Below, in pieces: positions 6,294 to 61,811 of a stretch of 64,000 nucleotides of DNA. The notes beneath the pieces are model-generated. The model was not told the DNA's origin, did no database searches, and saw only the letters and a program-made list of their open reading frames with translations. Source of the stretch: Punctularia strigosozonata HHB-11173 SS5 (taxonomy: Eukaryota; Basidiomycota; Agaricomycetes; Corticiales; Punctulariaceae). The stretch lies in assembly GCF_000264995.1 (NCBI RefSeq), contig NW_006767433.1, positions 2,433,074 through 2,497,073 on the forward strand. Reading direction: 5' to 3'. The translations under genes and the position numbers were made by a program. Position 1 is the stretch's first letter, and the number at the start of each line of letters is the position of its first letter.

Positions 6294-6735
6294 NNNNNNN
6301 NNNNNNNNNNNNNNNNNNNNNNNNNNNNNNNNNNNNNNNNNNNNNNNNNNNNNNNNNNNNNNNNNNNNNNNNNNNNNNNNNNNNNNNNNNNNNNNNNNNN
6401 NNNNNNNNNNNNNNNNNNNNNNNNNNNNNNNNNNNNNNNNNNNNNNNNNNNNNNNNNNNNNNNNNNNNNNNNNNNNNNNNNNNNNNNNNNNNNNNNNNNN
6501 NNNNNNNNNNNNNNNNNNNNNNNNNNNNNNNNNNNNNNNNNNNNNNNNNNNNNNNNNNNNNNNNNNNNNNNNNNNNNNNNNNNNNNNNNNNNNNNNNNNN
6601 NNNNNNNNNNNNNNNNNNNNNNNNNNNNNNNNNNNNNNNNNNNNNNNNNNNNNNNNNNNNNNNNNNNNNNNNNNNNNNNNNNNNNNNNNNNNNNNNNNNN
6701 NNNNNNNNNNNNNNNNNNNNNNNNNNNNNNNNNNN
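6294..6735. other. Assembly gap (442 N)
   Basis: A run of N sits between two near-identical repeat units, so the assembler probably failed on tandem copies. The true number of units, and hence the length of the LINE 5' UTR, is unknown. Open frames that cross it are meaningless. Confidence 1.
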
Positions 6736-7198: not shown

Positions 7199-7363
7199 CT
7201 TAAAAGCTTACTCCTCACCTTGACTCCCCAACAAGCTCCCCCCTCCCTGCAATCCCCGAGTCCGCGCACCGAGGCCTGCCCACCCACGAAAGACACCCCA
7301 ATTAACACCTCAGTGATGGCGAGTGACACACCACCCCATGCATCCGCATCCTGACCCTTTGAA

Positions 7364-8731
7364 ATGCAGAGTCACCTAGGCATGATGCAGACACTGGAGA
7401 TTATCGCACCCGAGACCGGACGCTCCCCAAAGCGCGTGCGCCCAGACGACGACCACCCCAAGGACGACGCCATCCCCGGCTCCAACGGACACCTGAGTGG
7501 CGACGTACGTGATGAAGTCATCGACGAGATCGAGTCGCGCCCGCGCATCCCTCTTCCGCAGAGAGCCATCTGGCCCAGCCCAACTGCGCCACCCGCCTTC
7601 ACGAAAGATAATCCCCACACCCAATCTTCGAGGCGGGGGGAAGCCCCACTGGCCAAGCCAACCGACCAGTCGGTCGAATTCCTCGACGCGACCTTTCCCC
7701 GGATAGGCCTGAGTATGGTGGATCTCCTAGACGGCATGGAGACGGCCCAGACCACGCCAGTTCTAAACAACCCGGGCGAATTCCTTGCGATTGTCCCCTT
7801 CAATGCCGGACCGGACCTCTTCGCGGCATGCCCAACGCTTCACACAGACATCCGCGACTTCATCGCAGACCTGCGCATCGACGAGGGACCGCCACAAGAG
7901 ACTTTGGGGAGCGCCAAGAGGCGCCTCGACACACACCGTCCCCTAGCCAAGAGAAACTCCAAACGCGCCTTCGACAAGCCGTGGACTATCCTCCTTACCG
8001 GATTCAACAACAAAGAACGCGCCTATCTGCTTTTCCAACAGACCTTCGCCGTCAATGAAGACATATGCTTCCATGTATTGTCCTTCGACCCGACTTTCTA
8101 CGAATGGACGATTATGCACATCTCGGGCGATGCGGTTAGGGCCGCTGAGGACGAAGAAGCCCGAACGGAGGTTGAGAACGAAATACTCACCACTATCAAG
8201 ACGACCCTTTGGAAAGACAAGCCATTCCGCAACTTCGTGGACCAGACCCTCCGCGCCGCCGGCATTCCAGGCACCGTGAACGACCGTGTCGCCTACGCGA
8301 CGAGCTCCTTTACCCTCTCGTACATTCCCCTACGCAACCAACAAGGCAGACTCGACCCGGTCATGCAACTGATGGGGCGTCCGATCTCACCCAACTACGA
8401 CGACCACCGCCGCTGGCTCGCGCTCATCCGCAGACCGGGATACTATACTAAAGGGGGACTGAAGAAGCTCCTCATCGAGAAAAAGGAAATCGAATGCGCC
8501 CTCTGCAAATCGTACACTCACCCGGCATGGGACTGCCCGTTCCCGAAGACACCGGGATGGTACGGCCCCACAGAGGCGAAAGCGTCGAAAACGAAAGGCA
8601 ACCTGAATGACCACCGCGGTAGAGGAAGAGGCCGCGGAAGGAATAATAGGGGCCGAGGCGGAGCCAGGACTCACGGCGGACGAGGAGGTTGGGAGACCGT
8701 AACCCATGGCCAGTACGGCAGCAGATGGTAG
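7364..8731 (+). CDS. LINE ORF1, CCHC zinc-knuckle RNA-binding protein
   Basis: 455 residues in one frame from the ATG at 7364. The N-terminus is polar and rich in Pro, Arg and Asp. The middle part (about 200-370) looks folded. A single CCHC knuckle at about residue 379 reads CALCKSYTHPAWDC, spacing C-x2-C-x4-H-x4-C. The tail is RG-rich (GRGRGRGRNNRGRGG), typical of nucleic-acid binding. By analogy with other LINEs, ORF1p coats the element RNA and helps form the RNP that is moved. No frameshift is seen. Confidence 0.9.
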   Translation: MQSHLGMMQTLEIIAPETGRSPKRVRPDDDHPKDDAIPGSNGHLSGDVRDEVIDEIESRPRIPLPQRAIWPSPTAPPAFTKDNPHTQSSRRGEAPLAKPTDQSVEFLDATFPRIGLSMVDLLDGMETAQTTPVLNNPGEFLAIVPFNAGPDLFAACPTLHTDIRDFIADLRIDEGPPQETLGSAKRRLDTHRPLAKRNSKRAFDKPWTILLTGFNNKERAYLLFQQTFAVNEDICFHVLSFDPTFYEWTIMHISGDAVRAAEDEEARTEVENEILTTIKTTLWKDKPFRNFVDQTLRAAGIPGTVNDRVAYATSSFTLSYIPLRNQQGRLDPVMQLMGRPISPNYDDHRRWLALIRRPGYYTKGGLKKLLIEKKEIECALCKSYTHPAWDCPFPKTPGWYGPTEAKASKTKGNLNDHRGRGRGRGRNNRGRGGARTHGGRGGWETVTHGQYGSRW

Positions 8732-9272
8732 ATATCCGGCCGACTAACATAGAACACCATTGAAGTAAACCCCACGTCCGTAATCAAAAACATACAATAC
8801 ACGATAGAACCCGGTGAAAGTTAGTCTTCTTTGGGGAGAATGAGACAACGGAGACGCTATACGGCCCAAATATACTGAGCCGCGAGGCGACAGGAAAGCC
8901 GTCCGAGCGTATAAACTCACGCGTATGGGCTAAAAGGTAAGTGGAGCCCAGCCGACGCTAAACGGCGAATTCGTGCGGGAGACGCGACCGCCCCAACGGG
9001 CGTACCACCCGAACGATGACCACTAACCGTTTCTAGGTCCAGCTAGCCGAGAGACGGAACCAAAGCAAGCAACGAACACGAACGGAAAGAACACAGTAAG
9101 CACTCACCACCCTCCAAACACTGACGGTCTTCTAGGCAACGGCGGATCCGCTCTCAGAGGCGGACTCGACGCAGCCGCCAGTCGAACCGTCGAGGACGAA
9201 GCGCGTGGTATCGGAGGCGGACAGGTACAACCAGATGGTGGCGAGGCCGTAGCGAGAGAGATCCACACGACC

Positions 9273-12200
9273 GTGACAGACGCTCGGCGTAATGACCCAC
9301 CACAGTTGACCGAAGGGCCCTCAGACAGAGAGAGCATGGCGACCTCGGAGCAAGGCCGACCAGAGACACAGACCGTGTCCGGGCCCCAGCAGACCGCTGG
9401 AGGACCACCACTGCAACGCAGAGGACGGCGAATCGCCGAGCAAATGCCCCACACGAGATCGGTGCACACAGAGGCCGTTGCGAACGAGTTACGCAGACGC
9501 CTAGGGGAGAACCCAAACGACGGCAGAGCGATAGGCAGACCAAGACGGAAGCCCCCCAAGGCAATGAAAGCAGGGATCCACATTGCGTCGTTGAATATCC
9601 GTGGATACGGACAAGCGAGTAGTCAAGTCAGTCATAACAAATGGTTCCACATAAATCAGCTGATGAGGGAACGGAGAATCGCGATCCTCCTGGTACAGGA
9701 GGCGCATATGGACGACCAGCGCCGGGACGAAATAGAGACCCTGTTCACGAACAGACTCCGCGTTTTCGTGTCCCCAGACCCAGATAACCCGACCGGGAAG
9801 GCTGGGGTAGCAATAGTAGTCAATAAACAACTAATCCGGAACTGGGACAAAATCACAGCAAAGACGGTCCTTCCAGGAAGAGCATTGAGTATAGAGCTCA
9901 ACATGCTAAACAACAAAAAACTCACGGTACTGAATGTGTACGCCCCTAATGATCCGCAAGAGAACCTCGCCTTCTGGATAGAGTTGGACGGACACTATGC
10001 GATGAACCGACGTGAAACGAGGCCGAACGTTATGGGAGGAGACTATAACCTAGTGGAAAGTGACATCGACAGATTACCATCTCACCCAGATTTCGACAAG
10101 GCCGTTGAGAAACTAGATGAGACGGTCAGCCGCCTACGACTAATAGACGGATGGAGAAATACATATGTCGATCGAAAAGAGTTCACATACTACCAAAAAT
10201 CGACCATGTCCCAGTCGAGAATAGACAGAATATATGTGACCCCAGAGTTTTTTGAGACGGCGAGAGAATGGAAGATATCGACAGTGGGCATCCCCAACCT
10301 CGACCATAAAATGGTGTCAGTACAGCTAACTGATGAGGCAAGCCCCGCGGTTGGAAGAGGACGATGGTCTATACCACAACACGTCCTCAAGGACCGCAAA
10401 TTCCGGAAGACAGCACATGAAGAGGGCCGGAAAGCAATGGAACGCCTAGAAAACGTGACGAACTCACGACGAACGTGGCAAGAAAACCCGCAAGTAATAT
10501 TTGCAGAAATGAAACGGGCGATTCTAAAGGCAGCCAGGCAGCGAGAACGTGAGACGGTCCCCAAAATAATCAAGATGCAGAAAGCCCTAGAGAACGACAT
10601 CGCCGAAGTCCTAAACCGGGAAATGGACGAAGACGAACGTGTGAGGGAAGCCGGCATCCTCACACAAAAATTGGAGGAGCTTGAAAGGAAGAGACACGGC
10701 AAGGCGAGGGAAGCGGTCGCAGTACGCAGCAGACTAGAGGGAGAAACCATCAGTCGCCATTGGATACAAACGAGCAAGGAAAAGAAACCGCGTGACATGA
10801 TATACGCCCTCCGAATCCCGCCGCAGCCGGGAACCCAACCAGGAGGCAATGCTGAGTACGAGAAAGAGACGGGGAAAATGGCCGAACTCGCCAGGAACTA
10901 CCACGAAGCCCTCCAACGGGAAGAAGACATTACAGATCCCGAAACCCGAGAAAAGACAATGCAAGAAGTCCTAGAAACCATTAAGTCAGAACCGAACCAC
11001 AGAGGAAAGGCGATCCTGAACGGACTAATCACAGAAAGAGAAGTACAAGACGCACTAAAGCACTCCAAGAACGGGAGCGCCGCCGGTCTAGACGGAGCAA
11101 CGTATGAACTGTGGAAAACACTGCACGCCCGCTTTGTAGAGGACTCACGACACGAGGATCGAGAGCCCTTCAATGTTATTAAAGTGATGACCGCGGCCTT
11201 CAACGACATCCAACTGCACGGCATTGACCCAAGAACAAAGTTCACCGAAGCTTGGATGTGCCCACTATACAAGAAGAACGATAGAAACGAGATTAGTAAC
11301 TATAGGCCGATATCCCTCCTCAACACGGACTACAAACTACTCACGAAATCACTAACCCTGAAGCTGGCGGAGGTGATAACCGACCTAGTACATCCAGACC
11401 AAGCTGGGTTTGTACCGGGGCGACAAATAACGGACCAAACTAAACTCACAAGGATGGTGATGGAATACGCGGAAGCTATGGAAGAGAACGGCCTCATAGT
11501 AGCGCTGGACCAGGAGAAAGCATATGATAAGATCGCACACGACTATCTCTGGAGGACCCTCGAAGCTTTCAAAATCCCTGATTTCTTCATAAGAACAATA
11601 AAAAACCTATACGCATATGCAGAGACAAGAGTGATGATCAACGGAACTCTGAGCTCACCATACAAAGTTATCCGCGGAGTGCGGCAGGGCGATCCTCTCT
11701 CATGCCTACTTTTCGACCTCGCGATTGAGCCGCTTGCGGAAATGTTACGATCATCAAACCTAAGAGGTTTCAGAATACCAGGCACAGAAGATAAGCTCAT
11801 CGCACGGCTATTTGCAGACGACACCACGGTGTTCCTGTCCGAATTCGACGATTTTGAGGACCTGCAAAAAATACTGAAAAAATGGTGTATAGCGTCAAAA
11901 GCAAAATTTAACATAGGAAAAACGGAGATACTCCCTATCGGAACCCCAGAATACCGGGAAACGGTCATTCGAGAAAGGAAGACAGAGGGGTGCGTTGTGC
12001 CGATCAACGACGACATCCACATGGTAGCAGAGGGTGAAAGCATCCGCCTCCTAGGGGCCTGGTACGGTAATAATCTTGAAGTGGAAGGCCCGTGGACGAT
12101 AGTGCTCAACAAAATTGATAAAAAATTAGAGCAATGGGAACGGACACACCCAACGATCCTGGGAAGGAAACTTATAGTCATGCTAACGGCGGGGAGCATG

Positions 12201-14402
12201 ACGCAGTACCTGACAACAGTCCAAGGCATGCCCTCTCACGTTGAGGCGAAGATTGCACGACGAATTTCGAGCTTCATGCGTGCGGATAAGTCGGCCGCAG
12301 CAGTGGCAGAAGAGACGCTTCAAGCACCTATAGAAATGGGAGGCCAAAATGTACTCGATATACGAGCAAGAAACAAGGCGATTAAAATCATGAACTTACG
12401 AGAATACCTAAACTTCGGACCACAGCGTCCATTGTGGGCAACCTTCGCAGATGCCCTATACGCTGCGAGAACGCCAAAGACGGAACGAAACCTAGAGAAC
12501 AGCATAAAAGTCAATATCTTCCTGCAAACATGGAGGACGAGCAAGGGTAATGCGACACACATCGCGGTAGAGCTCCGTGACCTCTGGAAAACAGCAAACG
12601 AATTTGGTGTCCGCCCCGAAGGGATAGCCTTCTCGAGAGACATCATTCGTAAAATGCCAATCTGGCGGCACAGGGAGGCCGACCCAAGAATACGCAGACT
12701 CGAACGATCACTGCCGGCCAAATGCTTGAAGACGACGCACCGCGTCATAACGGTGGGCGATGCAGAATTAATGGCAGACAGACGACATGAAGGGTCGCAT
12801 AAACCGCGAAGAAACTGCAAATGCTGCAACTGTAAGAATATGCGGAGCATGGGATGCTCCAACCCACACAAGTGCTATACCAAGGCAGATGAGCTCCTAG
12901 ATACACTCCCCCCCAAGTGGAACCCGAGAGGGCCAAAACCAGAGGACCGTGAGCCAAGAGACGTTATCGATGAGAACCCAGATGGAAGCCTGAACTTCGA
13001 CAACAGGCTGACAACGAGAGGTGAACTGGGGGACATATTCCGGATCTTCACTGAGGGGACCACCACAAACGAACTCCCGGACATAGCGAGGAACAACGAG
13101 ATCCCACAGAGTGATGGAATAGTGATAGCAACAGACGGGTCCTGTGTGAACAATGGAGATGCGGATGCGATAGCCGGCGCTGGGGGTTTCGTGACCGAGG
13201 GTGACGAAATGAACTTTGCCGTGAGACTGCCGGAAAAGATGGACCAATCAAACCAGACAGGAGAGATGGTCGCGATCAAAATCTGTGCCGAGAAAGTACC
13301 ACACGAACGAGCACTAGACATTGAGACTGACTCTAAATATGTCATCGGAGAAACAATAACATACCTGAAGAAGAGAGAAGACTCAGGCTACATAGCAGTT
13401 GCCAACCGCGAAATCGCAAAGGCGACAGTGGCTGCGCTACGAATGCGCCCCAAGAACACAAGCATGAAATGGATCAAAGGTCATAATGGACATGAAAGGA
13501 ATGAAGGAGCCGATCGGAAAGCTGCGGAGGCCGTTAAGAAAACGACGTGCGACGATGTGCCGCTAGAGATCCCCCCCACTCTGAAAGTAACCGGGGCAAA
13601 ACTGTCCAAAATGACCCAAAAACTAGCATATAAAGCGATCCGAGAAACCAAAATGAAAGAATACCGAGTACGTGAGAGAGCCGCGAGGAACATAGAACTA
13701 GTGCAAGACGCCAGTAAATCCATCTTTAATAAACTGCCCTCCCCCGCCAGGATATGGAAATCAATTCAGAACAAAGACATAGCCAGAGAAACGCGGTACT
13801 TCCTATGGATGGCAATGCATGACGCATACATGCTAGGTGACAAATGGCTTCGCCCAAGTTGCCCCGCGGACTTGAGAGAGAGGAGCGTGTGTGCACACTG
13901 CGACAAAATAGAATCAATGGAACACATACTAACGGAGTGCCGAGCATCGGGACAAGAAGAAATATGGTCACTCGCCTGCAACCTGTGGAAGAAAAAGAAC
14001 ACAGAGATAAATTTACCGTCACACCTGGTGGGTGCCATACTCGGAAGCCAGTGCACAGAGATCAGGAACAGTAAAGGGAAAATCAAACGGGGACAAACAC
14101 GACTATACCGGATCCTAATCGCAGAATCTGCGCACTTGATATGGAAAATGCGGTGCCAGAGAGTAATCCGCGACGGTAACCAGCCAAAAACACGCCGGGA
14201 AGTAAGGAACCGATGGAAGGCGGCGATTAACGCGAGGCTAAAGCTAGATTGCCGCTTGGCGGACCGAGCAAGTTTTGGCGCCAAAGCAGTAAACAGAGAC
14301 CTGGTCCTAGAGACGTGGTCCGGCACACTGCAAAACGAAAACCTCCTACCCGAAGACTGGGTAGGATGGAGCGGGGTTTTAGTGGGTATGGACCCAGATT
14401 AA
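9273..14402 (+). CDS. LINE ORF2: APE endonuclease, reverse transcriptase, RNase H
   Basis: 1709 residues open without interruption. The first codon here is GTG; the first ATG is near 9336, and the frame stays open upstream without an ATG, so the start is uncertain. Domains: APE-type endonuclease, residues about 105-350 (ASLNIRGYG, LLVQEAHM, GGDYNLVESDIDR, LDHKMVSV); reverse transcriptase about 640-900 (NYRPISLLN, AGFVPGR, ALDQEKAYDKI, RQGDPLSCLLFD and the catalytic FADD at about 847); a Cys-rich stretch at about 1180-1200; RNase H about 1285-1420 (ATDGSC, ETDSKYV, KWIKGHNGHERNEGAD); and a zf-RVT-like C-terminus with CAHC at about 1540. It nicks target DNA and copies element RNA at the break. 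All key catalytic motifs are present, so the element may be competent. Confidence 0.95.
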   Translation: MTDARRNDPPQLTEGPSDRESMATSEQGRPETQTVSGPQQTAGGPPLQRRGRRIAEQMPHTRSVHTEAVANELRRRLGENPNDGRAIGRPRRKPPKAMKAGIHIASLNIRGYGQASSQVSHNKWFHINQLMRERRIAILLVQEAHMDDQRRDEIETLFTNRLRVFVSPDPDNPTGKAGVAIVVNKQLIRNWDKITAKTVLPGRALSIELNMLNNKKLTVLNVYAPNDPQENLAFWIELDGHYAMNRRETRPNVMGGDYNLVESDIDRLPSHPDFDKAVEKLDETVSRLRLIDGWRNTYVDRKEFTYYQKSTMSQSRIDRIYVTPEFFETAREWKISTVGIPNLDHKMVSVQLTDEASPAVGRGRWSIPQHVLKDRKFRKTAHEEGRKAMERLENVTNSRRTWQENPQVIFAEMKRAILKAARQRERETVPKIIKMQKALENDIAEVLNREMDEDERVREAGILTQKLEELERKRHGKAREAVAVRSRLEGETISRHWIQTSKEKKPRDMIYALRIPPQPGTQPGGNAEYEKETGKMAELARNYHEALQREEDITDPETREKTMQEVLETIKSEPNHRGKAILNGLITEREVQDALKHSKNGSAAGLDGATYELWKTLHARFVEDSRHEDREPFNVIKVMTAAFNDIQLHGIDPRTKFTEAWMCPLYKKNDRNEISNYRPISLLNTDYKLLTKSLTLKLAEVITDLVHPDQAGFVPGRQITDQTKLTRMVMEYAEAMEENGLIVALDQEKAYDKIAHDYLWRTLEAFKIPDFFIRTIKNLYAYAETRVMINGTLSSPYKVIRGVRQGDPLSCLLFDLAIEPLAEMLRSSNLRGFRIPGTEDKLIARLFADDTTVFLSEFDDFEDLQKILKKWCIASKAKFNIGKTEILPIGTPEYRETVIRERKTEGCVVPINDDIHMVAEGESIRLLGAWYGNNLEVEGPWTIVLNKIDKKLEQWERTHPTILGRKLIVMLTAGSMTQYLTTVQGMPSHVEAKIARRISSFMRADKSAAAVAEETLQAPIEMGGQNVLDIRARNKAIKIMNLREYLNFGPQRPLWATFADALYAARTPKTERNLENSIKVNIFLQTWRTSKGNATHIAVELRDLWKTANEFGVRPEGIAFSRDIIRKMPIWRHREADPRIRRLERSLPAKCLKTTHRVITVGDAELMADRRHEGSHKPRRNCKCCNCKNMRSMGCSNPHKCYTKADELLDTLPPKWNPRGPKPEDREPRDVIDENPDGSLNFDNRLTTRGELGDIFRIFTEGTTTNELPDIARNNEIPQSDGIVIATDGSCVNNGDADAIAGAGGFVTEGDEMNFAVRLPEKMDQSNQTGEMVAIKICAEKVPHERALDIETDSKYVIGETITYLKKREDSGYIAVANREIAKATVAALRMRPKNTSMKWIKGHNGHERNEGADRKAAEAVKKTTCDDVPLEIPPTLKVTGAKLSKMTQKLAYKAIRETKMKEYRVRERAARNIELVQDASKSIFNKLPSPARIWKSIQNKDIARETRYFLWMAMHDAYMLGDKWLRPSCPADLRERSVCAHCDKIESMEHILTECRASGQEEIWSLACNLWKKKNTEINLPSHLVGAILGSQCTEIRNSKGKIKRGQTRLYRILIAESAHLIWKMRCQRVIRDGNQPKTRREVRNRWKAAINARLKLDCRLADRASFGAKAVNRDLVLETWSGTLQNENLLPEDWVGWSGVLVGMDPD

Positions 14403-21707: not shown

Positions 21708-22335
21708 ATCTTTCGATGTTGAATTTGAACCTATCCGGGAGATTATGATGGTAATCTGCAGGGTCAACAGCGTCTCGAGAGCGTAGCGCAACGTGAACCC
21801 AACAAGGCTTATACCACCAAGTGGGGCCGAGATACTCCCGATTGCATGCGGATGTTCTCATGACACGTTTTTGTTCATCATCGGATACTTATGATTGGTG
21901 CGATTGCTGATAGCAGCGATTCTGAGGCCAAGTCGGGTTCAGAGAACTGTATACGGAGTGCCGATGGCTCCGTTGTCTTCAGGGTATAGATTGAGCTTTG
22001 CGTTTCCTGCTGTAGATAGCAGCAATCTGCAGCCGGTGAGCGGTTCCATCGAGCAACTCGGTGTGCTGCACTGCACGAAAGAAGGAGCTTCGGCACGGTT
22101 GAGTTTGGGACCACGCGAGCTCGGCGCCGCCGTGTCAACTCCCTTGCATCCCATCACTACTGTCAGCTCAACTAGCTATTATTACACCATCGACATCGCC
22201 CTGGTGGGTACATCGTCCACATGCGTGGTGGGTGCGTTCGCTGAGGAGTGAAAACCAATTTCTATCGCCTCCAGCTATCCCATTTCAAGCGTACGCTTGG
22301 CACTACTCGCCAACGACTGAAACGCCTACCAGGAT
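21708..22335. promoter_or_regulatory. Divergent intergenic region between XYL1 and ketopantoate reductase
   Basis: About 630 bases between two start codons pointing away from each other. Open frames on both strands inside it show no domain or sensible splicing. It should hold both promoters; no specific element was identified. Confidence 0.5.
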
Positions 22336-23568
22336 ATGCGCTTTCATGTCCTTGGAATTGGCCCCATCGGCTCCCTCGTGGCCCATCACCTACGCAGGGC
22401 TCTACCTCCAGCCCACAGCATTGTCCTTATGCACAGGACCCTTGAACAGTCAAGACGTTCCGCATCCTCGGGCGAAATCCAGGTCGAGCACGGAGGGGTC
22501 ATCGAAACGCAGCGGGGATTTGAGTACGAGGTCTTCAAAACCCTTGATACAAATTCGCGGCCAGCAGGGGCCACTACTCATCCCATCGAATCCCTATTTG
22601 TCACCACAAAGGCTCATCAGGTTCTTCCGGCGATACGACCTCTCCTCCCTCGGCTTTCGCATGCGAGCGCCATCGTACTCCTGCACAATGGGATGGGCGT
22701 CTACGAACAGCTCGTTCATGAACTATTCCCGAATCCGAACACGCGACCCCACTTCATTCTGGCGAGCAACACGCACGGCGCATGGCTCAAAGACCGCAGT
22801 CCACCGCACGTTGTTCATGCCGGCATTGGGAGAATCTTGTTTGGCATCATACCCGATCCTCTTGAACGAGACTTTGAGCTGGGTCTCCGAAATGAAAGCG
22901 TTCCTGTCCACGAGAGAAAGCTCAGCTTTACGGATATTGCCAATCCGCCTGTTGATCACGCATACGCGAAATACCTGCCGCTGCGAAACACGGTGGCAGC
23001 GCTGCTGGCCATGGACTCGCTCAATACGCAATGGCTTCCGATATCGACCATTCAAGTTGAGATCAGACGCAAACTCGTTGTTAACTCGGTCATCAACCCG
23101 CTCACGGCTATCTTGCGGGCACGTAACGGGGACATTTTTGGGACACGTGAATCGATCCGTCTCGCACATAGAGTGTGCAAAGAGGCCTCTGCCGTCTTCA
23201 GAGCGCAGATGCAGGCAGAGGCCGACGTTGCGCAGCCGCAGAAGACTGCAGATACCACGGTCAAGCAAGGAGAAAGCAAAACGTGGAAACGCAAGTCCAT
23301 GAATGAAGCCCTCGGTGTGAAGTTGCCTCGCGATCTTCATGAAAGAGAACTGCTCAGAGCCTGCCTCGAGGTTGCCAAAAGCACTGGGGAAAACTTCTCG
23401 TCCATGCTCAAAGACTTATTGCAAGGCCTCAGCCCCTTCGAGATCGAGTACTTGAACGGATATCTTCTTAAATTGGGCAACGTGTACAACGTACCAATGC
23501 CGGCGACAGCAACCCTTCGAGATTTGGCTATCATGCGGTTTGCCATCCCCATCGACCAGTCGTTCTGA
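22336..23568 (+). CDS. PAN5: 2-dehydropantoate 2-reductase (ketopantoate reductase)
   Basis: 410 residues, single exon. The start MRFHVLGIGPIGSLVAHHLR carries the Rossmann GxGxxG fingerprint at the very N-terminus, which fixes the start. Family marks follow: SLFVTTKAHQV (catalytic Lys region), LHNGMGVYEQL and the C-terminal helical domain with EIRRKLVVNSVINPLTAIL, containing the KxxxN motif (Lys and Asn of the active site), and EIEYLNGYLLKLG. It reduces 2-dehydropantoate to pantoate with NADPH for pantothenate and coenzyme A. Length is somewhat above the bacterial enzymes (about 300) because of a longer middle and C-terminal insert, as in other fungi. No introns, unlike its neighbours. Confidence 0.9.
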   Translation: MRFHVLGIGPIGSLVAHHLRRALPPAHSIVLMHRTLEQSRRSASSGEIQVEHGGVIETQRGFEYEVFKTLDTNSRPAGATTHPIESLFVTTKAHQVLPAIRPLLPRLSHASAIVLLHNGMGVYEQLVHELFPNPNTRPHFILASNTHGAWLKDRSPPHVVHAGIGRILFGIIPDPLERDFELGLRNESVPVHERKLSFTDIANPPVDHAYAKYLPLRNTVAALLAMDSLNTQWLPISTIQVEIRRKLVVNSVINPLTAILRARNGDIFGTRESIRLAHRVCKEASAVFRAQMQAEADVAQPQKTADTTVKQGESKTWKRKSMNEALGVKLPRDLHERELLRACLEVAKSTGENFSSMLKDLLQGLSPFEIEYLNGYLLKLGNVYNVPMPATATLRDLAIMRFAIPIDQSF

Positions 23569-23689: not shown

Positions 23690-24662
23690 TATGGATTATA
23701 CGTGGATGAACGTATGTCGACGACATGCGTTAACCGGACCATGTGCAACGTCCATGTCCCCTCGTCCCGCACTCAAAGAGCAGAAGAGACGTGTCTGGAG
23801 ACACCTCCGTGCCAGTTTGCCGAGCGTCGAGCCGCGAGAATTGACATCGTGGATGTTGTTGTTCCAACAAACAAAACCAACAGCGCCCGACTGAATAACA
23901 GCATCCACTACGGTATCGTGGCTAAGGCAGGGCCCTCAGCTAATCTCGTGCAAAACGGCAGAGAGAATGGCATACCATCCACCATAGTCCTCTAGCACAC
24001 CAACGTTGTGCTCCACTGTAAACCATCCCAATGCAACCACCTCTTCCCACCACTCTGGATCCTCTTCGTCACTGTTCAGGATCATCGTGACCAACCTTAA
24101 CTAACGCCTTTCAACCAGATAATCCTCGATGCACCTCGCGGACCATTGGGGCCCACTCTGCGAGCGGGTTGGCACACTCTTGCTTGGATCGATGACAAGC
24201 CCTCGAGAAATCGCCGTGCCTGACGTGTATTGCGATATACTACGGTGCACTCAGTGCACGCACGAAGGCAAGGCGCGACACACATACCGGGGTATGTCCA
24301 CGTTATTTCAAACCCGAAGCTTCGCCGGAGGTAGACATCCACGGTTTGCATCAAGCTTCGAGACAACTTCGTGCCATGCTGGGCTATAGTCATGCTCGTA
24401 CTCGAAAACTGGGGCAAATGAGCGGACTCATCCGCATGCCTTCGTCATCACTTGCCTGCGTTCCCGCATTCACGAAGTATAGGAAGTCATGGCAAATCAG
24501 CTGTTCGTCCAGATGCACCGCGGAATGAAGCTCAGGCGACGGAGCAGGAATCCCCGAGCTTCGCTCATGGGCCTCTAGGTAGGATAGGGCGGCTAGGTTC
24601 CAGAAACATACACGGTCGTCATGACCCAAAGAAACCGAGTCCGGGACCGATGTGTAGGACAT
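23690..24662 (-). pseudogene. Decayed O-fucosyltransferase-like gene copy
   Basis: Parallel in order and content to the intact gene at 25521-27338 but lacking its N-terminal membrane segment and first half. Recognisable pieces: a first exon reading YTSVPDSVSLGHDD at about 24655, FEYEHDYSPAWHEVV near 24370, the motif YIAIHVRHGDF at about 24200-24235, DEEDPEWWEEVVALGWF near 24050, AVIQSG near 23900 and GTTTSTMSILAARR near 23850. Relative to the intact copy there is an in-frame stop soon after the FEYEHDY piece and what looks like a four-base duplication (TGTT) near 23870. These signs and the missing 5' half argue for a pseudogene left by tandem duplication. Which intron positions remain functional is not clear. 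Confidence 0.75.
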
Positions 24663-25520
24663 ATATAGGTAAATTCGTCAGAAGCAGCGCATGTGTTTGA
24701 AACGAGCGACCAACCTCGCGGAGTGGGGATGATATATGGTATATGGTCCTATCAGATTAACCTCAAGTCGTTATGATTGCATGATAGCGCTGTTCTGACC
24801 GCCCCAAAGACAGCACGTAAATCTTCATGACAGCGTCCGTCGGACGACTGACGCTCCTTCGAGCTGCCGATGAATGTAGTCAGCGTAACTGCTTAGTCCG
24901 CAAGGAGCAGTTTCGAATTGATGTGCCTTGCGATAATCGGCACAAGTACTGACTAGAGGAAAGGGCGGTCTCCCGCCAATCCACCTTCGCTTGCACCTCC
25001 CTTGTGTGATTTAAGACGCAATGGTATACTCTACGTGTATACATGACAACTAGATAACTATTAATGCACCTTAGGATGCCAGCCATCCCTAGTCTTGGGC
25101 CATCTAATGCCAACTTAGGAAGGATGTGACGTACGCTAAATTGTTCTGCAAATCACTGTTATGTTTAGTAGCCGTACAACAAGCCATGTATATACTTCGT
25201 AAAGTCTGCGTAGAATCGACGATGTATGTTTGCCGTATACCGTATACGCTCCGTTTTGAATCGGAGTATCAAATTGGGGCGTAACACAGCCACGGTTAGC
25301 GATGCGTACTAATTACGGGCAGGGAGATACCAGAGCAAGCTCAGGTAACGAAACCGCAGTCGGGAATCTTGGGGACACTTGTAGTACAATACTTGACGCG
25401 TCAACAGAGCAATTCGTTGAGGCGTGAGCAGTCGCTCATCAGGTACAGTATGAGTGATACAACATCGTACATAGATTGGTCCGTGTCGGGTGGTGTCCGT
25501 TTATCTCGGAAGTAGCACTG
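24663..25520. other. Stretch between the two fucosyltransferase copies, no supported gene
   Basis: AT-richer than its neighbours, with many stops in all frames. It does not contain a recognisable copy of the missing 5' half of the decayed gene. No RNA gene or terminal repeats were seen. Confidence 0.6.
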
Positions 25521-27338
25521 TCAATGTGAATCCGCGTCAAGGGTTCCCCATCGGACTGTTCTCGTCGAACCGTGATGCCAATCTTCCACCCGCCGACATG
25601 CCAACACCGACATAGTTGATGCTGCGGTGCCAACAAAACCCTGACCCGACGACTGAACCACTGCGTCAATGAGAACAGGATACCTCATCATGGACACCCG
25701 TCGTCAGAACGTCGGGAGAGTGAAGAATGACATAAAAGCTCACCATTTGCTATAAGTTTCGACCGTGCGAAGGGCATCGTGATCCACTCTGTACCACCCC
25801 AACGCGGCGACGTCATCCCACCATGCAGGATCCGTTTCGTCGCTTGTCATAACGACTCGCGAAACTTCAATGCCTTTGCGCTCCATCAGTTCCAGCTGTA
25901 TCTCTTGAACTCTTGTAGAGAACGCAGACAACGGGGCGAAACAGTCAGCTTTGGGCCTATCTTCGCAATATACGCCAAAATCTCCATGTCGGGCGTGTAT
26001 CGCAATGTACTAAACCACGTGAGAGTGCGCTCAACAAGATGAAATTGATGCAGAAGCACGGCACACACCGGTGGCAAGTCTTCACCATCCAAGACATCGA
26101 ATGTGACACGCAGATAGTAGTCTGCGATGTCCTGAAGCCTCGGGTTCCACCTAAAGTGCGTTGCCACTTCGCGCCACTGCGGAGCGTAGTCCGTTTCCCA
26201 TTCGTACGGCTACACGCGCCGGTCAGCACCTCTCGCTCTTTCCTGCGGCGATATTCCCACCTGATGAACGCTGGTATAATAGAGATAGTCATAGCACGTA
26301 ATATGTTCGTCAGGTTCCAGACTGGCGTGATGTTGGGGCGAAGGTTGGGTATCTCCGAGGCTCGTCGCGCGAGTCTCAGGGAAACTCAGGGTAGCCAGGG
26401 ACCAAAAACTGGCATGAGGGTCGTTCTCAAACTGCGGGAACATCTTGACCCAATCCGGAGCGCGTGTGTACGATATATCTAGGAAGGAGCAGTATCAGTC
26501 GAACCGAAATTCAGGGCCCGTATAGGCGTGGTTAGCGTGGATTTACCTAGATTGAGCCACGATGGTACTACACTGTACCGTGGAGAGTCCGCATCGAACT
26601 GGACGGCCTGCCAGATATTCCAGCAGCCAATGTCTTCGAGTTCGGAGCTCTCCGGTTTCTTGAGCTCGTGCCATTCAACGATAGGGCCCACTGCTTGACG
26701 CAACCGAGGTACGTCGAACACCTCCCCGAAGGCAATGGGCGGAACGTCGGAACCGATGTGCGACGGTACAAACGGCGGAATGACCGGCACGCGATCTGTG
26801 ATCAGTCCAAGATAGACTAGATTGGCCTGCAGAGATGGCCGTCAGCGCGGATTGAACGGCTCCACACGGCATACGCACATATGTCATGCTGGAAAGCAAG
26901 TCAGCCCTGCTCCTTACTGTGCGACGTTCCAAGCGGGACGTACACATCGTTCGTCCATCCAGCAGCGACCCAGGATGTTATATATCTCGTATCGTTCCGC
27001 AGGTTGTCACGGAAGCGATCCGTAGGTGGTCCCAGCACATATTGCTCCTCGTCCACTAGGAGGGAATTGTTCGAGGTGGAGGGACACGCCTGGCTGATGA
27101 TGCGTGCTCTCTGGTAGCCTGTCCTGGCGTACGAGAAGGCCAAAGCGCCGATCGAAAGGAGGATCAGCAGTGACGCAAGGATAGCAACCAGGCGTCGGCG
27201 GGAGATGGTGCCTACGGCCTTGGGGTTGGGAGGGGAATCCAACCAGTCCCGGTCACCCAAGGGAGAGGGTAGCAGCGGTTGAGATGACTGGCTGCGCCCA
27301 TGCATCAAGAGCGCGGCAAAGCGTCCCTTCTGGGCCAT
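25521..27338 (-). CDS. Type II membrane O-fucosyltransferase-like protein
   Basis: The start MAQKGRFAALLMHG at 27338 is followed by a basic stretch and one membrane segment (LVAILASLLILLSIGALAF), typical of a Golgi type II enzyme. Spliced exons then give AAGWTNDVMTY, ANLVYLGLITDRVPVIPPF, PSHIGSDVPPIAFGEVFDVP, PYEWETDYAPQWREVA and the motif YIAIHARHGDF at about 25975-26005, then CFAPLSAFSTRVQEIQLELM, VVMTSDETDPAWWDDV and a final exon with GQGFVGTAASTMSVLACRR. HxRxGDF followed by a late Ser/Thr-rich loop is the pattern of GDP-fucose O-fucosyltransferase folds (POFUT/GT65/GT68-like). Acceptor and exact donor are unknown. A 10-nt exon at 26879-26888 is needed to keep the frame. It lies head-to-head with a GDP-fucose-type transporter. 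Confidence 0.78.
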
Positions 27339-27880
27339 GTCGAGAGGACGGCAGAGGAAGAACTCGGATGCGATCCCTGGCTGGTGACTCGGATTGTGCG
27401 GAGGGTCGTTGCAGGCAGAGATAATGACGAGCCAGTGGTTTGCGAGAGTCGCGGATGAGCCGGAGTACGCGGACGGCGGTGAGCAGCTGGTAAGTTATGT
27501 GGGAGATCGGATGATGATGGCCATGGGGTGCGGGCATAGACCGCACAAAATGTAGGCGCCTCATGCTGTGAGCACGTTGACGTCGCGTCCGGTGCGGCAA
27601 TGGATGCCGTCGGTGGGAAGGGTGCGCGCTGCGAAGAACAAGCGGCTTGCGAGTCCACCTCTCATTTGGGAGCGCGTTCAGCCATGGGACCCCTGCTTCG
27701 GCGGGCCAGCACAGCCCCTGCGACCTCCCCTGGTGTCCGATGCGTTGGCCGCCCTGGGCCGCCTTGGGCCCGACGGTGGGTGCCTGGGTCGCCGCGTCCG
27801 ACGAAAATCCACCTTTCTCACCGACACCGATAGCGCGTTGATCTTCGACAGCTCAGGGTCAGGGCGCCCAGCCGGGGTCC
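27339..27880. promoter_or_regulatory. GC-rich divergent region between fucosyltransferase and transporter
   Basis: About 540 bases separate the fucosyltransferase ATG from the first supported exon of the transporter on the other strand. Frames are open by chance because of high GC. It probably contains both promoters and possibly the first coding exon of the transporter. Confidence 0.5.
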
Positions 27881-27886
27881 TCCACA

Positions 27887-29603
27887 GTGTCACGATCGCC
27901 ACTGTCATTCTCGGCCCACCACGAGGCGCACCAATCGAACTCTGAATTCGCCCCGGGATACATAATAATCTATCCTCCCGATGTCATCTCACGTCCGCAG
28001 ACCCTGCCCGCGCTGGTCGATCGCATCACGGTATACAAGACACATCGGCCCTCACCTTCGTGCTCCTCAACGCCTGCTCGATCCTCACGATGGTCGTCCC
28101 TAACAGAATGCAGCTGCAAGTCGCGGGAGTCGTCGTGTTCTACATGTCGGCGGCACTGGTGGTCAGTCCTCCGTACATCCTTCCTAGTTTACGATTCCTG
28201 AATGCTAGTCATGCAGATGGTCTTCGTGTAAGTACTTATGCAGCATCCTGCAGCACCCGATCCTCCTCACGGCCTTGTTCAGAAACAAAGCCGTGTTGAA
28301 ATCGTCTCCGGATCTTCCTCTGGTGTTCCTCTTCGTTCAGCTTGTCATGGCTGTGTTGCTCCTGCACGCGACAGCGTTGGTCACGTCAAAGGTCGAGATT
28401 CCAGCGATGGACTTGGCTGTTGCGAAGAAACTGCTTCCCGTGGTGTCTGTGAACGCCATCGGACTGGTTTTCAACACTCTCTGCCTGCGGGACGTTGAAG
28501 CCTCGTTTTTCCAGGCGCGTCTGCATTCAGTCCCCGCCATCGCAGACGGCACTTGTTAATGACCGTGACCTGCAGATTGCCAGAGGTATGCAATTGCCGC
28601 TGACCATTCTGGTCTCTTCCTGGCACCTCCATCAGATACCGACAAAGCGCGTGCTTGTGGCTGCTTGTGTTGTTACGGCCGGGTTTTTCGTCGGGATAAC
28701 GCCTACGAGATCTCTTCCCAGGGATGCGACGCCCTCCGGCCTTTCGCTATTTTACGGCGTCATCTCGTCCTTGATGATCGCTATCCATGCAGTCCTTATC
28801 AAGTCGTCTCTGCCTCACTGCCAGAATTCGACCATTCAGTTGGCGTACTGGACCAACATAGGATCGGCCGTCATGCTCGCACCGTTTGTCATCTTCCATG
28901 GTGAAATAACCAAAGTTGTGGATCTGTATGCGACACCTTCTTGGGACGGGAATACATTCGTGTGGGGCAGTTTGGTGACCGGTATGTCTTATCTCCATTC
29001 ACTCCGTGCACAGGATCTGAAACTGTCCGTCGCTAGGTTTATTTGGATTCTTACTCTGCGTTGCCGGGTTGCTAAGCATCAAGGTTCGTCATTTATCTCC
29101 AACGGTCAAGCATCGATTGCTCAGTGCTACGTCGGTGTAGGTTACTTCACCGACGTCCCATATGTTCAGCAGCGTATGTCACGTCACATGCCGTGCGGTG
29201 TCGAGCTAGACTGAGGTCGATTGAACGTTACCTCCAGGCGGCTAGATCGGTGCTTCAGACGGCCTTGGGCGTTTTGATTTTCCACGATATTCTTACGATG
29301 TGCGGTGATTACTCGCTCCTCAGTCCGCGCGCTCACACACAGCCCGATTTTTAGCAACCGCGCGGCATCCATCTTGACCATTCTTGTGGGTACCCTGTGA
29401 GCCATCGATTCCTCTCATACATCAACAGGATATCACGTTGACAGCCTTGTAGGTGGTACACTTGGATAAAATCGACCGAGAGTCGCCAGCAACCACCTTC
29501 GCGTCCAGTCGACCTAGAAGCGATGAACACTCCAAAGCACAACGAAGAGGAGGCGGTGGTGCTCTTTTCTGCGCCCGAGAAGGATGTCACGGATAGGGAC
29601 TGA
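27887..29603 (+). CDS. Nucleotide-sugar transporter, GDP-fucose (SLC35C1) type
   Basis: Exons joined by small introns give AGVVVFYMSAALV, MVFVNKAVLKSSPDLPLVF, FVQLVMAVLLLHATALV, NAIGLVFNTLCLRDVEASFF, then IARGMQLPLTILVSSW, AACVVTAGFFVGI, GLSLFYGVISSLMIAIHAVL, LFGFLLCVAGLLSIKVTSP, SHMFSSAARSVLQTALGVLI and a tail with many Glu and Asp ending at 29603. About ten hydrophobic helices, the EASFFQIARGMQLPLTI signature and GFFVG match SLC35C1-type GDP-fucose transporters of the Golgi (GDP-sugar/GMP antiporters). GDP-mannose or another GDP-sugar is possible as substrate. The intron at 28515-28575 starts with GC instead of GT. The true start codon is unclear: no in-frame ATG occurs in the first supported exon, so an upstream exon is likely. 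Confidence 0.82.
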
Positions 29604-40382: not shown

Positions 40383-43300
40383 ATGGCCCTGTCCCGTGCA
40401 CTTCTCGTCCGATGCCCTCGCCCTGGCCAGCCGGCGGCGGCCCGTAAGGCGTTGACACGGCGCTCGTTCGCGAGGCTGACCACCCCCTCCAACCTCTTCG
40501 ACCCTTTGGACACCTTTGCGGAGCGTCACATCGGCCCCGACGACCATGAGGCCAGGCTCATGCTTTCCAAACTTGGATGCGAGTCCATCGACTCGTTCGT
40601 AGCCGAGGCGGTCCCGGCGCACATACGCTTGTCTCCCCATGCCCTGGACAATACGTCCATTCCGGCCCTCAGTGAATCCCAGCTTCAAAAGCGCGCGCAC
40701 GAGCTCGGAGCGATGAACAAGCGCTTCAGAAGCTATATCGGCATGGGCTACCATAACGCCGTCGTTCCGCCTGTGATCCTGCGAAATGTACGCTTGCTCG
40801 TCACCATTGGCTTCCGATAACTGACGTGGTGCATCACAGGTCATGGAGAATCCCGCTTGGTACACCCAATATACACCATATCAACCGGAGATTGCTCAAG
40901 GTTTGTTCCCCCGTGTATATACCGAATGGACTTGGGCTCATATTCATCCAGGTCGATTGGAATCCCTCGTCAATTTTCAGACAATGATCATGTCTTTAAC
41001 CGCCATGGATATCGCAAACGCCTCTTTGTTGGACGAAGCAACAGCAGCTGCGGAGGGTATGGTCATGGCCTTTGCCTCGGCGAACCAGAAACGCAAGGCT
41101 TTTCTGGTTGACGAGGCTGTAGCGCCTCAAACCCAGGCTGTTCTGCGCACACGGGCGAAGGGGTTCGGCATTCGCCTTGTGATTGGCAACATACAGTCCC
41201 TCGCCAACGACGAGTCTCTCCTTTCGGAAACTTGCGGTGTTCTCGTGCAGTATCCCGACGTGGACGGCGATATTCGCGACTACGCTAAACTCGCGGAGGC
41301 TATCCATTCTTCCAACGGATTGGTGGTGTGCGCGACGGATCTCCTTGCTTTGACAATGCTCAAGCCGCCTGGAGAGTGGGGCGCTGACATCGTGGTGGGC
41401 AATTCAGCCCGATTTGGTGTTCCTGCTGGATATGGTGGCCCGCATGCCGCATTCTTCGCGTGCACGGACAAACTGAAGCGCAAAATGCCCGGGAGGCTCG
41501 TTGGCCGAAGCCGCGATGTCACTGGAAAACCTGCGTACAGGCTCGCATTGCAAAGTAGGTTATTATGTACGATATTGAAGGTCGATTTTGCTGACGTTGC
41601 GTAGCTCGTGAACAGCACATCCGCCGAGAGAAGGCTACAAGCAATATCTGCACTAGTCAAGCTCTCCTTGCTAACATGGCCGCCATGTATGCCGTTTATC
41701 ACGGGCCTATCGGATTACGCCACATCGCCAACAAAGTGCACGGACTCACATGTATCCTCAAGGCCAATCTCGAGCGTCTTGGTTACTCCGTCCGTAATCA
41801 GTCGTTCTTCGATACTCTGACAGTAGAGGTTGCTGGAGCAGCGGCATCTGCGAGTGTCGTGCATGAAGCATCTCAGGCTGCTGGCATCAATCTTCGGCAT
41901 ATCAACGCTTCCACCGTCGGCATCACCTTTGACGAGAGCGTTGGAGTCGAGGATCTCATTGATGCCATTAACGTTTTCGCTTCGGCTGCCAACAAACCCC
42001 CCGTTCGCGTTTCCGAGCTCGGTGCCGTCAAGGCCGTATCCGTTCCCGAGGTGCTCCTTCGGCAGTCCGGCTTCCTGTCTCATCCGGTTTTCAATAAACA
42101 TCATTCCGAGACCGAAATGCTGCGTTACATCCATCACCTGCAATCCAAGGATCTTTCGCTCGTTCATACGATGATTCCTCTCGGTAGCTGCACAATGAAG
42201 CTCAACAGTACGACCAGCATGGTTCCTATCACCTGGCCCGAGTTCAGCAACGTACATCCTTTCGCCCCAGCGGAACAGGTTCAAGGTTATTTGCAGGTCA
42301 TCAAGGTATGAGCCATAGTTTCACCGTCAAGCTTTGCTGGAAACTCATGCATCACCGAACCAGGAACTTGAGGCAGATCTTTGTCAGATTACCGGTTTCC
42401 ATGCTTGTTCGCTTCAGCCGAACTCCGGTGCTGCGGGTGAATATGCTGGTTTGAGCGTGATTCGCGCGTACCACGAATCTCGCGGGCAGGGTCACCGCAA
42501 TATCTGCCTCATCCCCGTCAGCGCTCACGGCACGAACCCTGCTGTGAGTTTATGCAGCTACCAGCCATTTATGGAGATGGTTGATTTTGTTCCAGTCTGC
42601 CGTCATGGCAGGACTGAAAGTCGTTCCGGTCAAAAGCCTCTCCGATGGAAGCCTCGATCTCTCTGATCTGAAAGCAAAGGCTGAGCAGCATAAGGACAAC
42701 CTCGCCGCTTTCATGGTTAGCGTCATTGGCACATCACTGAACGACCTATTGACACCGTTCATAAGATCACTTACCCGTCTACTTTTGGCGTGTTCGAAGA
42801 TGGCGTCCGAGATGCTTGCAATATCATCCACGAAAACGGAGGCCAAGTGTACCTCGATGGTGAGTCGGGTACCGTAGAGGCCGACGACTAAACGTATCTT
42901 ACACTCATGAAGGCGCAAATCTGAATGCACAAGTTGGTCTGACCAATCCAGCAACCTGCGGCGGCGACGTGTGCCACCTGAACTTGCACAAAACGTTCGC
43001 GATGTGAGCAGCACACCCTATCGTTTCTGACCAAGAAACTGATTACTATGTCAGCCCCCATGGCGGCGGCGGTCCTGGAGTTGGGTGAGTTGACTGTCGA
43101 CCATCAACCACCCGAGTGTTTGCTCTGCTAACTGTACTGTAGACCCATCTGTGTGGCGGAGCACCTTGCACCCTTTTTACCAACGCACCCCGTGTTTGCT
43201 ACCGGAGGACCACAGGCAATCGACGCAGTTGCCGGTGCACCGTATGGCAGCGCCTCTATCCTTCTGATATCTTGGGCGTATATCAAGATGCTAGGAGGGA

Positions 43301-54980: not shown

Positions 54981-55443
54981 TTCGGGTTAGGTATCGGCAC
55001 ATATCTTACAAACATCGTATTCGGCAGTTCTTTACATTCGAGAGCGACCTACAGGGTATACCACATACATCATCGCATATACTATCCATACATTGACCAT
55101 AACTTAATCTACCGTTTGACTGTCCGGTGTGTCATTGATGGTAGAGCAATCTATGGGATCAATTGCAGCTGCAGCTTATATATATGCTAGAAATACCCAA
55201 GGTGCCGGTGTCAGCTGCCTTGCTGTACCAACTATTGCCAGAACCTTATTCGTAAATATAGTGGCGTATGTCATTCGACTCATGGTAGGTAGATAGGTCA
55301 TGGTGGAACAACGGGCGCGGCAATAAAATGCAGGACGGAACTGTCGATGTCGAGTTTCATCGGCGTCAGCGCTGATTGGAGGATGCAGCTTGAGTCGATT
55401 AGAGAAAGACGCGGCAACGCCACCGAGGTTTGCGCCGTCACCG
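54981..55443. other. Intergenic stretch upstream of MIP
   Basis: About 460 AT-rich bases, then GC-rich sequence near the MIP start. No gene seen. The MIP frame is open a little further upstream of the chosen ATG but only with TTG. Confidence 0.55.
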
Positions 55444-57927: not shown

Positions 57928-59109
57928 AATACTGCCGTATTCCCTCAGTTATATGGCAGGCAGTGACTTCTGTGGATGTACTTTCCGGCTTAGTAGTGCA
58001 TACGAGAGAAAGGAGGGCATCGAGCGGTTGCGAAGGCCGGAACAGATAGCGAGATGCAAGCTCATGCACGAGTCCTACACGTGGTAAACACTGCCCGCAA
58101 AACGGAACCGTTCCGGACGCAACGATGTTCATCTCCGTCTCGCCGCCGGCCCTTGCTGATACGTAGAGTTATCGGGACTTTCTGGCACGAAGGAGTGTCA
58201 TGCAATCTGTCACGTGATGAAAAAGTAATTGAAGAGCTCGGTTCAACAAGATGCAACTCCAGATGAAGGCTTCAACGTTTCAACTTCACAGCTGCAATAG
58301 GTGCGGGTGACGGGAACTTCCGGTGTGGAACGCTCCTTTGTGGCCTTTTGTGACACACGCGTACGGCGGGTGACGGCACGCCGATACCTAATTACAGGCA
58401 CCGAAGTTATCCGACTGGAGAACTCAATGCCAGTCTTCCGGACTTGCTTCCGACCCTGCACGCCTAAACATCGAACGATACATGTTTCGGTGGCTGAAGT
58501 TGGCGCAGCAACCAACGTGCTCATCCAGGGAATCGTGGTCGCAAATGTACCCACCCTCGGCATGATCTGAGCACATGCAATATGAAGATGCATAGGCGGC
58601 TGCTCATCACTGAGCCTGCCGCTGCACAGGCAATGTCATCGGCGGGCACCATTCACGGGAAGGCCATCTGCGGTTTCACGGGCTGATCACATATGGTCAA
58701 TCCATACGTCTTCGGTGAGCACTATCATTGGGGAAGACGAACACGAGTCCTGAATGTCCTGCAGGTGTCTTCATGTTCTTCGGTTGCTGGACGAGTCCAG
58801 ATCGAAAGCCGCCAATCCGCCATGATGGAAAAAATGCATGATGGACTAGAGATTTTCCATCGCGACCGATTTACCTACAGGCTGTTGGAACGAAGGTCGT
58901 TGGCTCTCTTCCTCTCCTTCGGGACGCCTCCTCCGAAACTCGGCAATGGTCCCATCTCGCACTTTATCACTTTCCCTTCGTGCGATGCAACATAATGTGG
59001 AGTGCGTTTTGGGTTGTATTTCACAGCGACCTTCCCGAGCGAATAAAAGGGCACCCCGAACTCCTTGAAGATCGCAACTTGCTCCCGCTCGATCGCGATC
59101 ACCTTCAAC
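57928..59109. other. Intergenic stretch between MIP and the methyltransferase, no supported gene
   Basis: About 1.2 kb. A minus-strand frame at 58875-59183 (about 100 residues, start MINVVGDFDREVRVKG) looks somewhat protein-like but overlaps the first exon of the next gene and has no recognised family. It may be a relic or chance. Confidence 0.5.
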
Positions 59110-61086: not shown

Positions 61087-61811
61087 GTCGCTTGTGCATA
61101 CATGCATGACTACCTTTTATAATTGTATCATTTCCTGTAGTTCAAACTACGATCAAGCTTGTCATGGTTTCGAGGGACGTTGCATTACAACCGGATTGCG
61201 TGGGGATCACTGCGCACCCACTGTGAGAGTAGCATACATAATTTCCAGATTAATCCGGATCCACTAAATGCAGAAAAGTGACGCTTAAGTAATGCAACAT
61301 CGATGCAAACCGCCATATCGTTCTCTGCTTTCCATACATATTTCTTGAGCGGAAACATTCCACTTATATATGTCTGCTACAAGCTGCGGACTTTCTTGAT
61401 GCTACATGTTGCCGTTGCCCCAAGGCCTCGCTACGGTGCTTCGCCTTTCCGAAGTAATCATTAATACTTAAAGGTTCGTGTTGGAAACACACCTTCATAG
61501 AGATGCAGTATTCGACTGGAGGAGTGCGTGAATTGGCAACTTAAAGCAGCTCGACGTGTAGTATTGAATAAATACAATGAGCACTACACACACCCAGTAG
61601 ATAGCACGAAAAGCAGAAAATAATATACGAATAGATTACTGAGAACCATGGAGTGGTATACATACAGTGGATGACAGCAATGACAGCGATACATCGAGTA
61701 ACGGCAACAGCAACGATAGCATAATGCAAGGGGAATTAAGATGAATGAGCACGGAGAGATAGCATGAATGAAGTATAATTTGAGTAAAATGGGGAAAGTG
61801 GCGTTGTGGGA
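61087..61811. other. Intergenic stretch between the methyltransferase and HD1
   Basis: About 725 AT-rich bases between two convergent genes. No gene, RNA gene or terminal repeat seen. Confidence 0.6.

Follow-up and report, generated by a model that had tools for sequence, protein, structure and literature searches.

A divergent O-FucT-like glycosyltransferase gene head to head with an SLC35C1-like transporter gene in Punctularia strigosozonata, a candidate fucosylation unit

The stretch of Punctularia strigosozonata HHB-11173 SS5 DNA considered here, 64,000 nucleotides of contig NW_006767433.1 referred to below as the window (G000:C1:2433074-2497073, within a 33.57-Mb genome of 32 contigs), contains two divergent genes that stand head to head with start codons 642 bp apart, one for a glycosyltransferase related to the O-FucT family (PF10250) and the other for a nucleotide-sugar transporter resembling SLC35C1 (Table 1). 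The pair is real and more than a chance family match, because the window transferase matched the O-FucT profile with an expectation value (E) of 5.2e-6 and all four intact members in the genome (i.e., the window protein and three paralogues on contigs C4, C2 and C7) matched the same profile. Judged from sequence, the two genes are read with moderate confidence as a two-gene fucosylation unit. The head-to-head arrangement had been noted in an original prediction for this DNA and was borne out by spliced models in which both genes are open, while the interpretation given there, of a small Golgi module for fucose or a related GDP-sugar, is partly supported as a whole.

The transferase is a divergent relative of the fucose-attaching enzymes and likely uses a fucosyl donor. 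The gene is divided into seven exons, one of just 10 nt, by six GT-AG introns of 51–68 bp, lacks an internal stop and ends exactly where the original prediction had placed its ends (27338 to 25521, minus strand). A hydrophobic stretch near the N-terminus, at about residues 45–68 of the hydropathy profile, predicts a type II membrane protein and, together with the sequence IHARHGDF, agrees with the earlier description of such a protein with an HxRxGDF motif. The O-FucT match covered profile positions 9–316 of 326. Residues R355, D443, S459 and T460, which are invariant in the four intact members, were identified by motif matching as equivalents of POFUT2 R294, D371, S387 and T388, with Met at the position of POFUT2 F389. 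In POFUT2, residues P53, D371, S387, T388 and F389 are assigned to GDP-fucose binding and residues E54 and R294 to catalysis (PMC10481521). The POFUT2 residue numbers follow PMC10481521; the spacing from D to S was 16 in a POFUT2 segment and in the window transferase, whereas the spacing from R to D was 77 in the former as opposed to 88 in the latter.

The transporter gene is complete in ten exons, one of just 11 nt. Of the span originally given for it (27887-29603), the stop at 29603 was retained while the start proved to be at 27981. A donor site for the second exon that lies 3 nt further on (exon end 28161) would lengthen the protein by one Val, to 362 aa, and would, we think, suit the family better. 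The predicted protein scored 52.5 bits against the TPT profile (PF03151, cut-off 30). In comparisons among eight proteins, one of which, a TPT protein of the genome, was a fragment, the window transporter was 29% identical to human SLC35C1 over 340 aligned positions (E 2.9e-34, 126 bits) and at E≤10 matched neither the Vrg4 of yeast nor that of the genome itself, nor human SLC35D1, nor either of two TPT proteins of the genome. The SLC35C1-like identity claimed in the original prediction was thereby upheld, SLC35C1 being the nearest of the carriers compared and none of the GDP-mannose or UDP-sugar carriers compared giving a match. A GDP-mannose carrier was ruled out by the missing Vrg4 match, by the presence of SSAAR in place of GALNK, the motif of GDP-mannose transporters in transmembrane helix 9, and by the existence of a separate Vrg4-type gene on C11 that encodes both FYNN and GALNK. 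Arg and Thr occupy the columns of SLC35C1 R147 and T308 in the window transporter, and Arg and Ser in its paralogue; patient changes at either position abolish rescue of fucosylation by SLC35C1 (PMC6508934). In a tree of the eight proteins the window carrier and this paralogue were paired (98/97), while the point at which SLC35C1 joins was not resolved. Searches of PDB sequences with the transporter or its two-row profile gave no convincing relative. The PF03151 search of the genome indicated five other loci and skipped both SLC35C1-like genes; thus, family searches miss genes that are split by many introns.

The strongest new support for GDP-fucose came from the location of the sister carrier, since this gene adjoins one for GDP-L-fucose synthase. 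Thus, the sole other homologue of the window transporter in the genome at E≤0.01 (48% identical, with matches on the minus strand at C1:3778099-3779121) stands, at a distance of about 100 bp between the two readings, head to head with a gene found by a search with E. coli Fcl (C1:3779960-3780901, plus), the spliced reading of which scored 455.4 bits against PDB 4b8w, a GDP-L-fucose synthase. A GMD locus was found with PF16363 on the same contig near 3.814 Mb, about 33 kb beyond the synthase gene, and a 178-aa piece of it scored 298.9 bits against PDB 6gpj, a GDP-mannose 4,6 dehydratase. Both enzymes of GDP-fucose synthesis, for which a look in the genome had originally been proposed, are therefore present. 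Fucosyl donors are predicted in most Basidiomycota, Ustilaginomycotina excepted (PMC8092308), so that the pathway was to be expected in this genome. A precedent for reading the linkage of a carrier with an enzyme is provided by Aspergillus, in which a cluster of ugtA with the mutase gene ugmA first pointed to UgtA as the carrier of UDP-galactofuranose (UDP-Galf) and in which double deletion of ugtA and ugtB removed Galf (PMC4630932). In both cases one carrier is linked to an enzyme that makes the nucleotide sugar and a second, paralogous carrier is encoded elsewhere, but the sugars differ and the second carrier in the present genome adjoins a transferase gene.

In the proposed unit, GMD and GDP-L-fucose synthase would generate GDP-L-fucose in the cytosol, and the window transporter, acting, as its family suggests, as an antiporter of the SLC35C1 type, would take it into the Golgi lumen against GMP. 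The transferase, presumably anchored by its single N-terminal membrane helix with the catalytic domain in the lumen, would then move fucose onto an acceptor, candidates for which are protein Ser/Thr, a glycan (fucogalactan or N-glycan) and a small molecule. The 642-bp upstream region shared by the two genes would permit their joint expression.

Results that weigh against this reading were noted for the carrier, for the transferase and for the surroundings of the transferase paralogues. The main one, directed against a plain GDP-fucose carrier, is the replacement of FYNN in transmembrane helix 7, a motif that SLC35C1 shares with the two Vrg4 proteins but that reads YWTN in the window transporter and WYNN in its paralogue. 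This motif binds the nucleotide (PMC13342644), the substrate of the transporter may therefore have shifted, and the protein is named SLC35C1-like because FYNN is not conserved in it. The transporter model also depends on one GC-AG intron; unspliced, the frame stops inside, the open reading frame (ORF) ending at 28559. The altered nucleotide-binding motif and the longer branch of the window carrier (0.69 compared with 0.42 for its paralogue) would fit a genuine pair devoted to a sugar other than fucose, the drifted transporter feeding the transferase a different nucleotide sugar. This is considered unlikely, given that the rest of the transporter, including the R147 and T308 columns, is nearest to SLC35C1 among the carriers compared and that the transferase retains four residues named for the GDP-fucose site (PMC10481521). 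Slightly less likely still is the more particular course of events in which the duplicated carrier lost FYNN once its synthase-linked sister had relieved it of its task, and would now serve a transferase of its own with another nucleotide deoxysugar or a modified one, for a sugar modification not yet described in mushrooms.

On the side of the transferase, the O-FucT score of 26.7 bits is below the curated Pfam cut-off of 31.5, and the protein is for this reason termed a divergent relative and not a formal PF10250 member. An incomplete first model matched no Pfam family whereas the complete model did. Among the plant relatives with PF10250 are enzymes that act with sugars other than fucose. 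The similarity of the C-terminal part to the POFUT2 segment was weak, its score being reached by 8 of 500 shuffles for the window protein and by 0, 2 and 12 of 500 for those of C4, C2 and C7, respectively, and searches of PDB sequences with the transferase or its four-row profile gave no POFUT chain and no other convincing relative. Ala occurs at the place of the catalytic Glu of POFUT2 (E54), in the sequence AAGWTND, the equivalence being judged by eye; E54 is retained solely in O-FucT subfamilies C and G (PMC10481521). Thus, of the POFUT-like fucosyltransferase originally proposed, a relative of O-FucT type (PF10250) stood, while protein O-fucosylation in particular was not supported, the catalytic Glu of POFUT2 not being in place. 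Neither GT10 (PF00852) nor XG_FTase (PF03254) was matched in searches of the genome, but the controls were equally silent and absence of these families is not shown. Profile scans of viral contigs for the transferase and the transporter detected no relative.

The remaining contrary result concerns the three paralogues, which were found as multi-exon loci, in addition to the window gene and a decayed copy described below, when the genome was searched with the window transferase. With the window protein as guide, spliced alignment yielded models without frame breaks for all three (C4, C2 and C7), spanning query residues 10–490, 37–480 and 30–490 with identities of 58, 50 and 46%, respectively; 14 introns had to be assumed for C7, and some of these may not be genuine. 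Among the four intact members the best O-FucT match was at E 5.1e-13. No homologue of the window transporter was found near any of the three paralogues in the genome search with the transporter, and pairing is therefore not required for the enzyme family. In the 10-kb stretches around these genes, 10 of 46 ORFs of at least 125 aa were profile-scanned and family matches were obtained for five, two of them to an ABC transporter and one each to TAF4, a PHM7-type protein and an RNase PH domain. Within the range tested, the window gene alone is paired with a carrier. O-FucT loci of more distant kinship were noted on C3 and C1, with ORFs that scored 33.9 bits (best stretch at profile positions 1–37) and 25.3 bits (151–310), respectively. 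The motifs HVRVGDG and GTPGSTFSAY occur in a 613-aa open frame at L065 2700-4541 (minus), an O-FucT relative of a lineage different from that of the window gene.

The paralogues without a linked carrier of the same family, together with the overlapping functions of UgtA and UgtB in Aspergillus niger (PMC4630932), would suit an arrangement in which the window genes are neighbors by chance, the synthase-linked carrier feeds the transferase and the carrier in the window either duplicates that function or is otherwise employed. Such an arrangement appears improbable, since chance would not readily place one of two related carriers next to an O-FucT relative and its sister next to the synthase. A rough estimate for the former adjacency is about 0.2% (2 carriers x 2 neighbors x 6 O-FucT genes / ~10,000 genes, the last figure being borrowed from the 33.6-Mb genome of Pycnoporus cinnabarinus, with 10,442 genes).

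The decayed second transferase copy of the original prediction is real, although it seems closer to the C2 paralogue (GT_C2) than to its intact neighbor. In tblastn searches, all four intact transferases matched within 23785-24674 on the minus strand in several frames, starting from query residues 179–228, and with these queries an N-terminal part of the copy was not detectable. A frame-tolerant alignment reached 25449 with five to six frame breaks, an extension for which tblastn gives no backing. The decayed copy grouped with GT_C2 in the tree (95/95), shared 97 of 186 residues in chosen pieces with GT_C2 compared with 83 of 186 for the window protein, and gave a higher frame-tolerant score (524.5 vs 443.0) and a higher best single tblastn match (90.9 vs 53.1 bits) with GT_C2. 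The linked tblastn E-value, one measure out of four, leaned slightly the other way (6e-26 for the window protein vs 1e-23 for GT_C2). The decayed copy is thus probably nearest to GT_C2, its origin as a tandem duplicate of the neighbor was set aside on the strength of the tree, the residue counts, the frame-tolerant score and the best tblastn match, and two O-FucT lineages have probably been present at this site.

Past the decayed copy lies a ketopantoate-reductase-like gene, of the class found beside O-FucT subfamily E, and subfamily G is tied to strobilurin (PMC10481521). A secondary-metabolite neighborhood, in which the transferase would place a sugar on a small molecule, was considered from these associations and is the least probable of the alternatives, indeed very unlikely, in view of the failure to find a polyketide or terpene synthase among seven other window ORFs that were profile-scanned or among long ORFs inspected by eye, and in view of the membrane anchor and the Golgi-type carrier, which indicate the secretory pathway.

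Compared with known systems, the candidate fucosylation unit has features in common with each and differs from each. The POFUT proteins are soluble proteins of the endoplasmic reticulum, unlike the window transferase with its N-terminal membrane helix. With POFUT1 and POFUT2 (GT65/GT68) the window protein shares the profile family, HxRxxDF, the order D...GT..ST.S and, for the POFUT2 segment, the D-S spacing; it differs in having no significant POFUT match in PDB and in the Ala noted above. The window carrier, a predicted transporter, resembles SLC35C1, the Golgi GDP-fucose transporter, in identity, in the absence of GALNK and in the two patient-variant columns and differs from it by YWTN in place of FYNN. 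Transporter class 2.A.7.16 is presumably the SLC35C1 class. Fungal members of this class have been surveyed, as have eight O-FucT subfamilies, two of them plant-specific and the others fungal and commonest in Agaricomycotina, Pucciniomycotina and Mortierellomycotina (PMC10481521). Like the fungal subfamilies, the window transferase aligns over nearly the whole PF10250 profile and keeps the Arg, Asp, Ser and Thr of the GDP-fucose site, and it resembles subfamily E in the nearby ketopantoate reductase. In contrast with subfamilies D and E, it has an aromatic residue after the glycine of the first motif (GW), reported missing there, and a linked transporter, such as the window transferase has, is not described for the fungal subfamilies in the sections of PMC10481521 consulted.

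The original prediction of an uncharacterised pathway is to be narrowed accordingly, in that fungal O-FucT subfamilies and GDP-fucose-type carriers had already been surveyed, while fungal fucose transporters were, in the same 2023 text, without experimental verification and fungal O-FucT substrates were left open (PMC10481521). No description of a fungal O-FucT and carrier gene pair was found in the literature searched, and the pair may be unreported, though each of its parts belongs to a known kind. Fucose is a constituent of some mushroom polysaccharides (PMC6432100, PMC9573675). The two linked pairs, one of carrier and GDP-L-fucose synthase and the other of carrier and transferase, make carrier and enzyme testable jointly, and the natural change from FYNN to YWTN offers a test of how SLC35 carriers select the nucleotide.

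Table 1. Features of the gene pair, its surroundings and the sister carrier locus (window positions unless another locus is named)
Feature	Position	Strand	Basis or remark
O-FucT-like glycosyltransferase gene, 490 aa	25521..27338	minus	spliced model, PF10250 match, hydropathy
Transferase exons	27338-26944, 26888-26879, 26826-26547, 26478-26261, 26209-26069, 26009-25744, 25683-25521	minus	
IHARHGDF-motif exon	25744..26009	minus	H353, R355, D358, F359 invariant in 4/4 intact members of genome
Last exon, IDAVVQ...GFVGTAASTMS	25521..25683	minus	D443, S459, T460 as counterparts of POFUT2 D371, S387, T388
Shared 5' region between divergent start codons	27339..27980		642 bp, from both spliced models
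SLC35C1-like nucleotide-sugar transporter gene, 361 aa	27981..29603	plus	spliced model, PF03151 match, SLC35C1 identity
Transporter exons 1-5	27981-28030, 28107-28158 (or to 28161), 28217-28227, 28283-28514, 28576-28981	plus	
Transporter exons 6-10	29037-29083, 29141-29173, 29238-29299, 29355-29396, 29453-29603	plus	
GC-AG intron of transporter	28515-28575	plus	CAG/GCGCGT
Decayed O-FucT-like copy	23785..24674	minus	frame broken; tblastn, frame-tolerant alignment, tree
Ketopantoate-reductase-like ORF (ApbA/PanE), neighbor outside the pair	22321..23568	plus	PF08546 E 5.8e-27, PF02558 E 5.5e-19
Sister carrier and GDP-L-fucose synthase pair	L064 4300-7426 (C1:3777799-3780925)	carrier minus, synthase plus	genome matches, spliced readings

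Other features of the window were noted in passing. A run of 442 N occupies 6294-6735 and is followed at 7355-14399 by a LINE-type (long interspersed nuclear element) retroelement with a possible first ORF that was picked out by eye (7355-8728); its endonuclease, reverse transcriptase and RNase H domains are encoded in an open frame of 1791 aa. A glycine cleavage system P-protein gene lies at 40825-42308, where the first ORF was matched. The segment at 55327-63488, 26–34 kb from the gene pair, is the mating-type A region, in which a gene for a peptidase M3, interpreted as the mitochondrial intermediate peptidase, accompanies a homeodomain gene that also encodes a Mating_C domain (61815-63488, minus).

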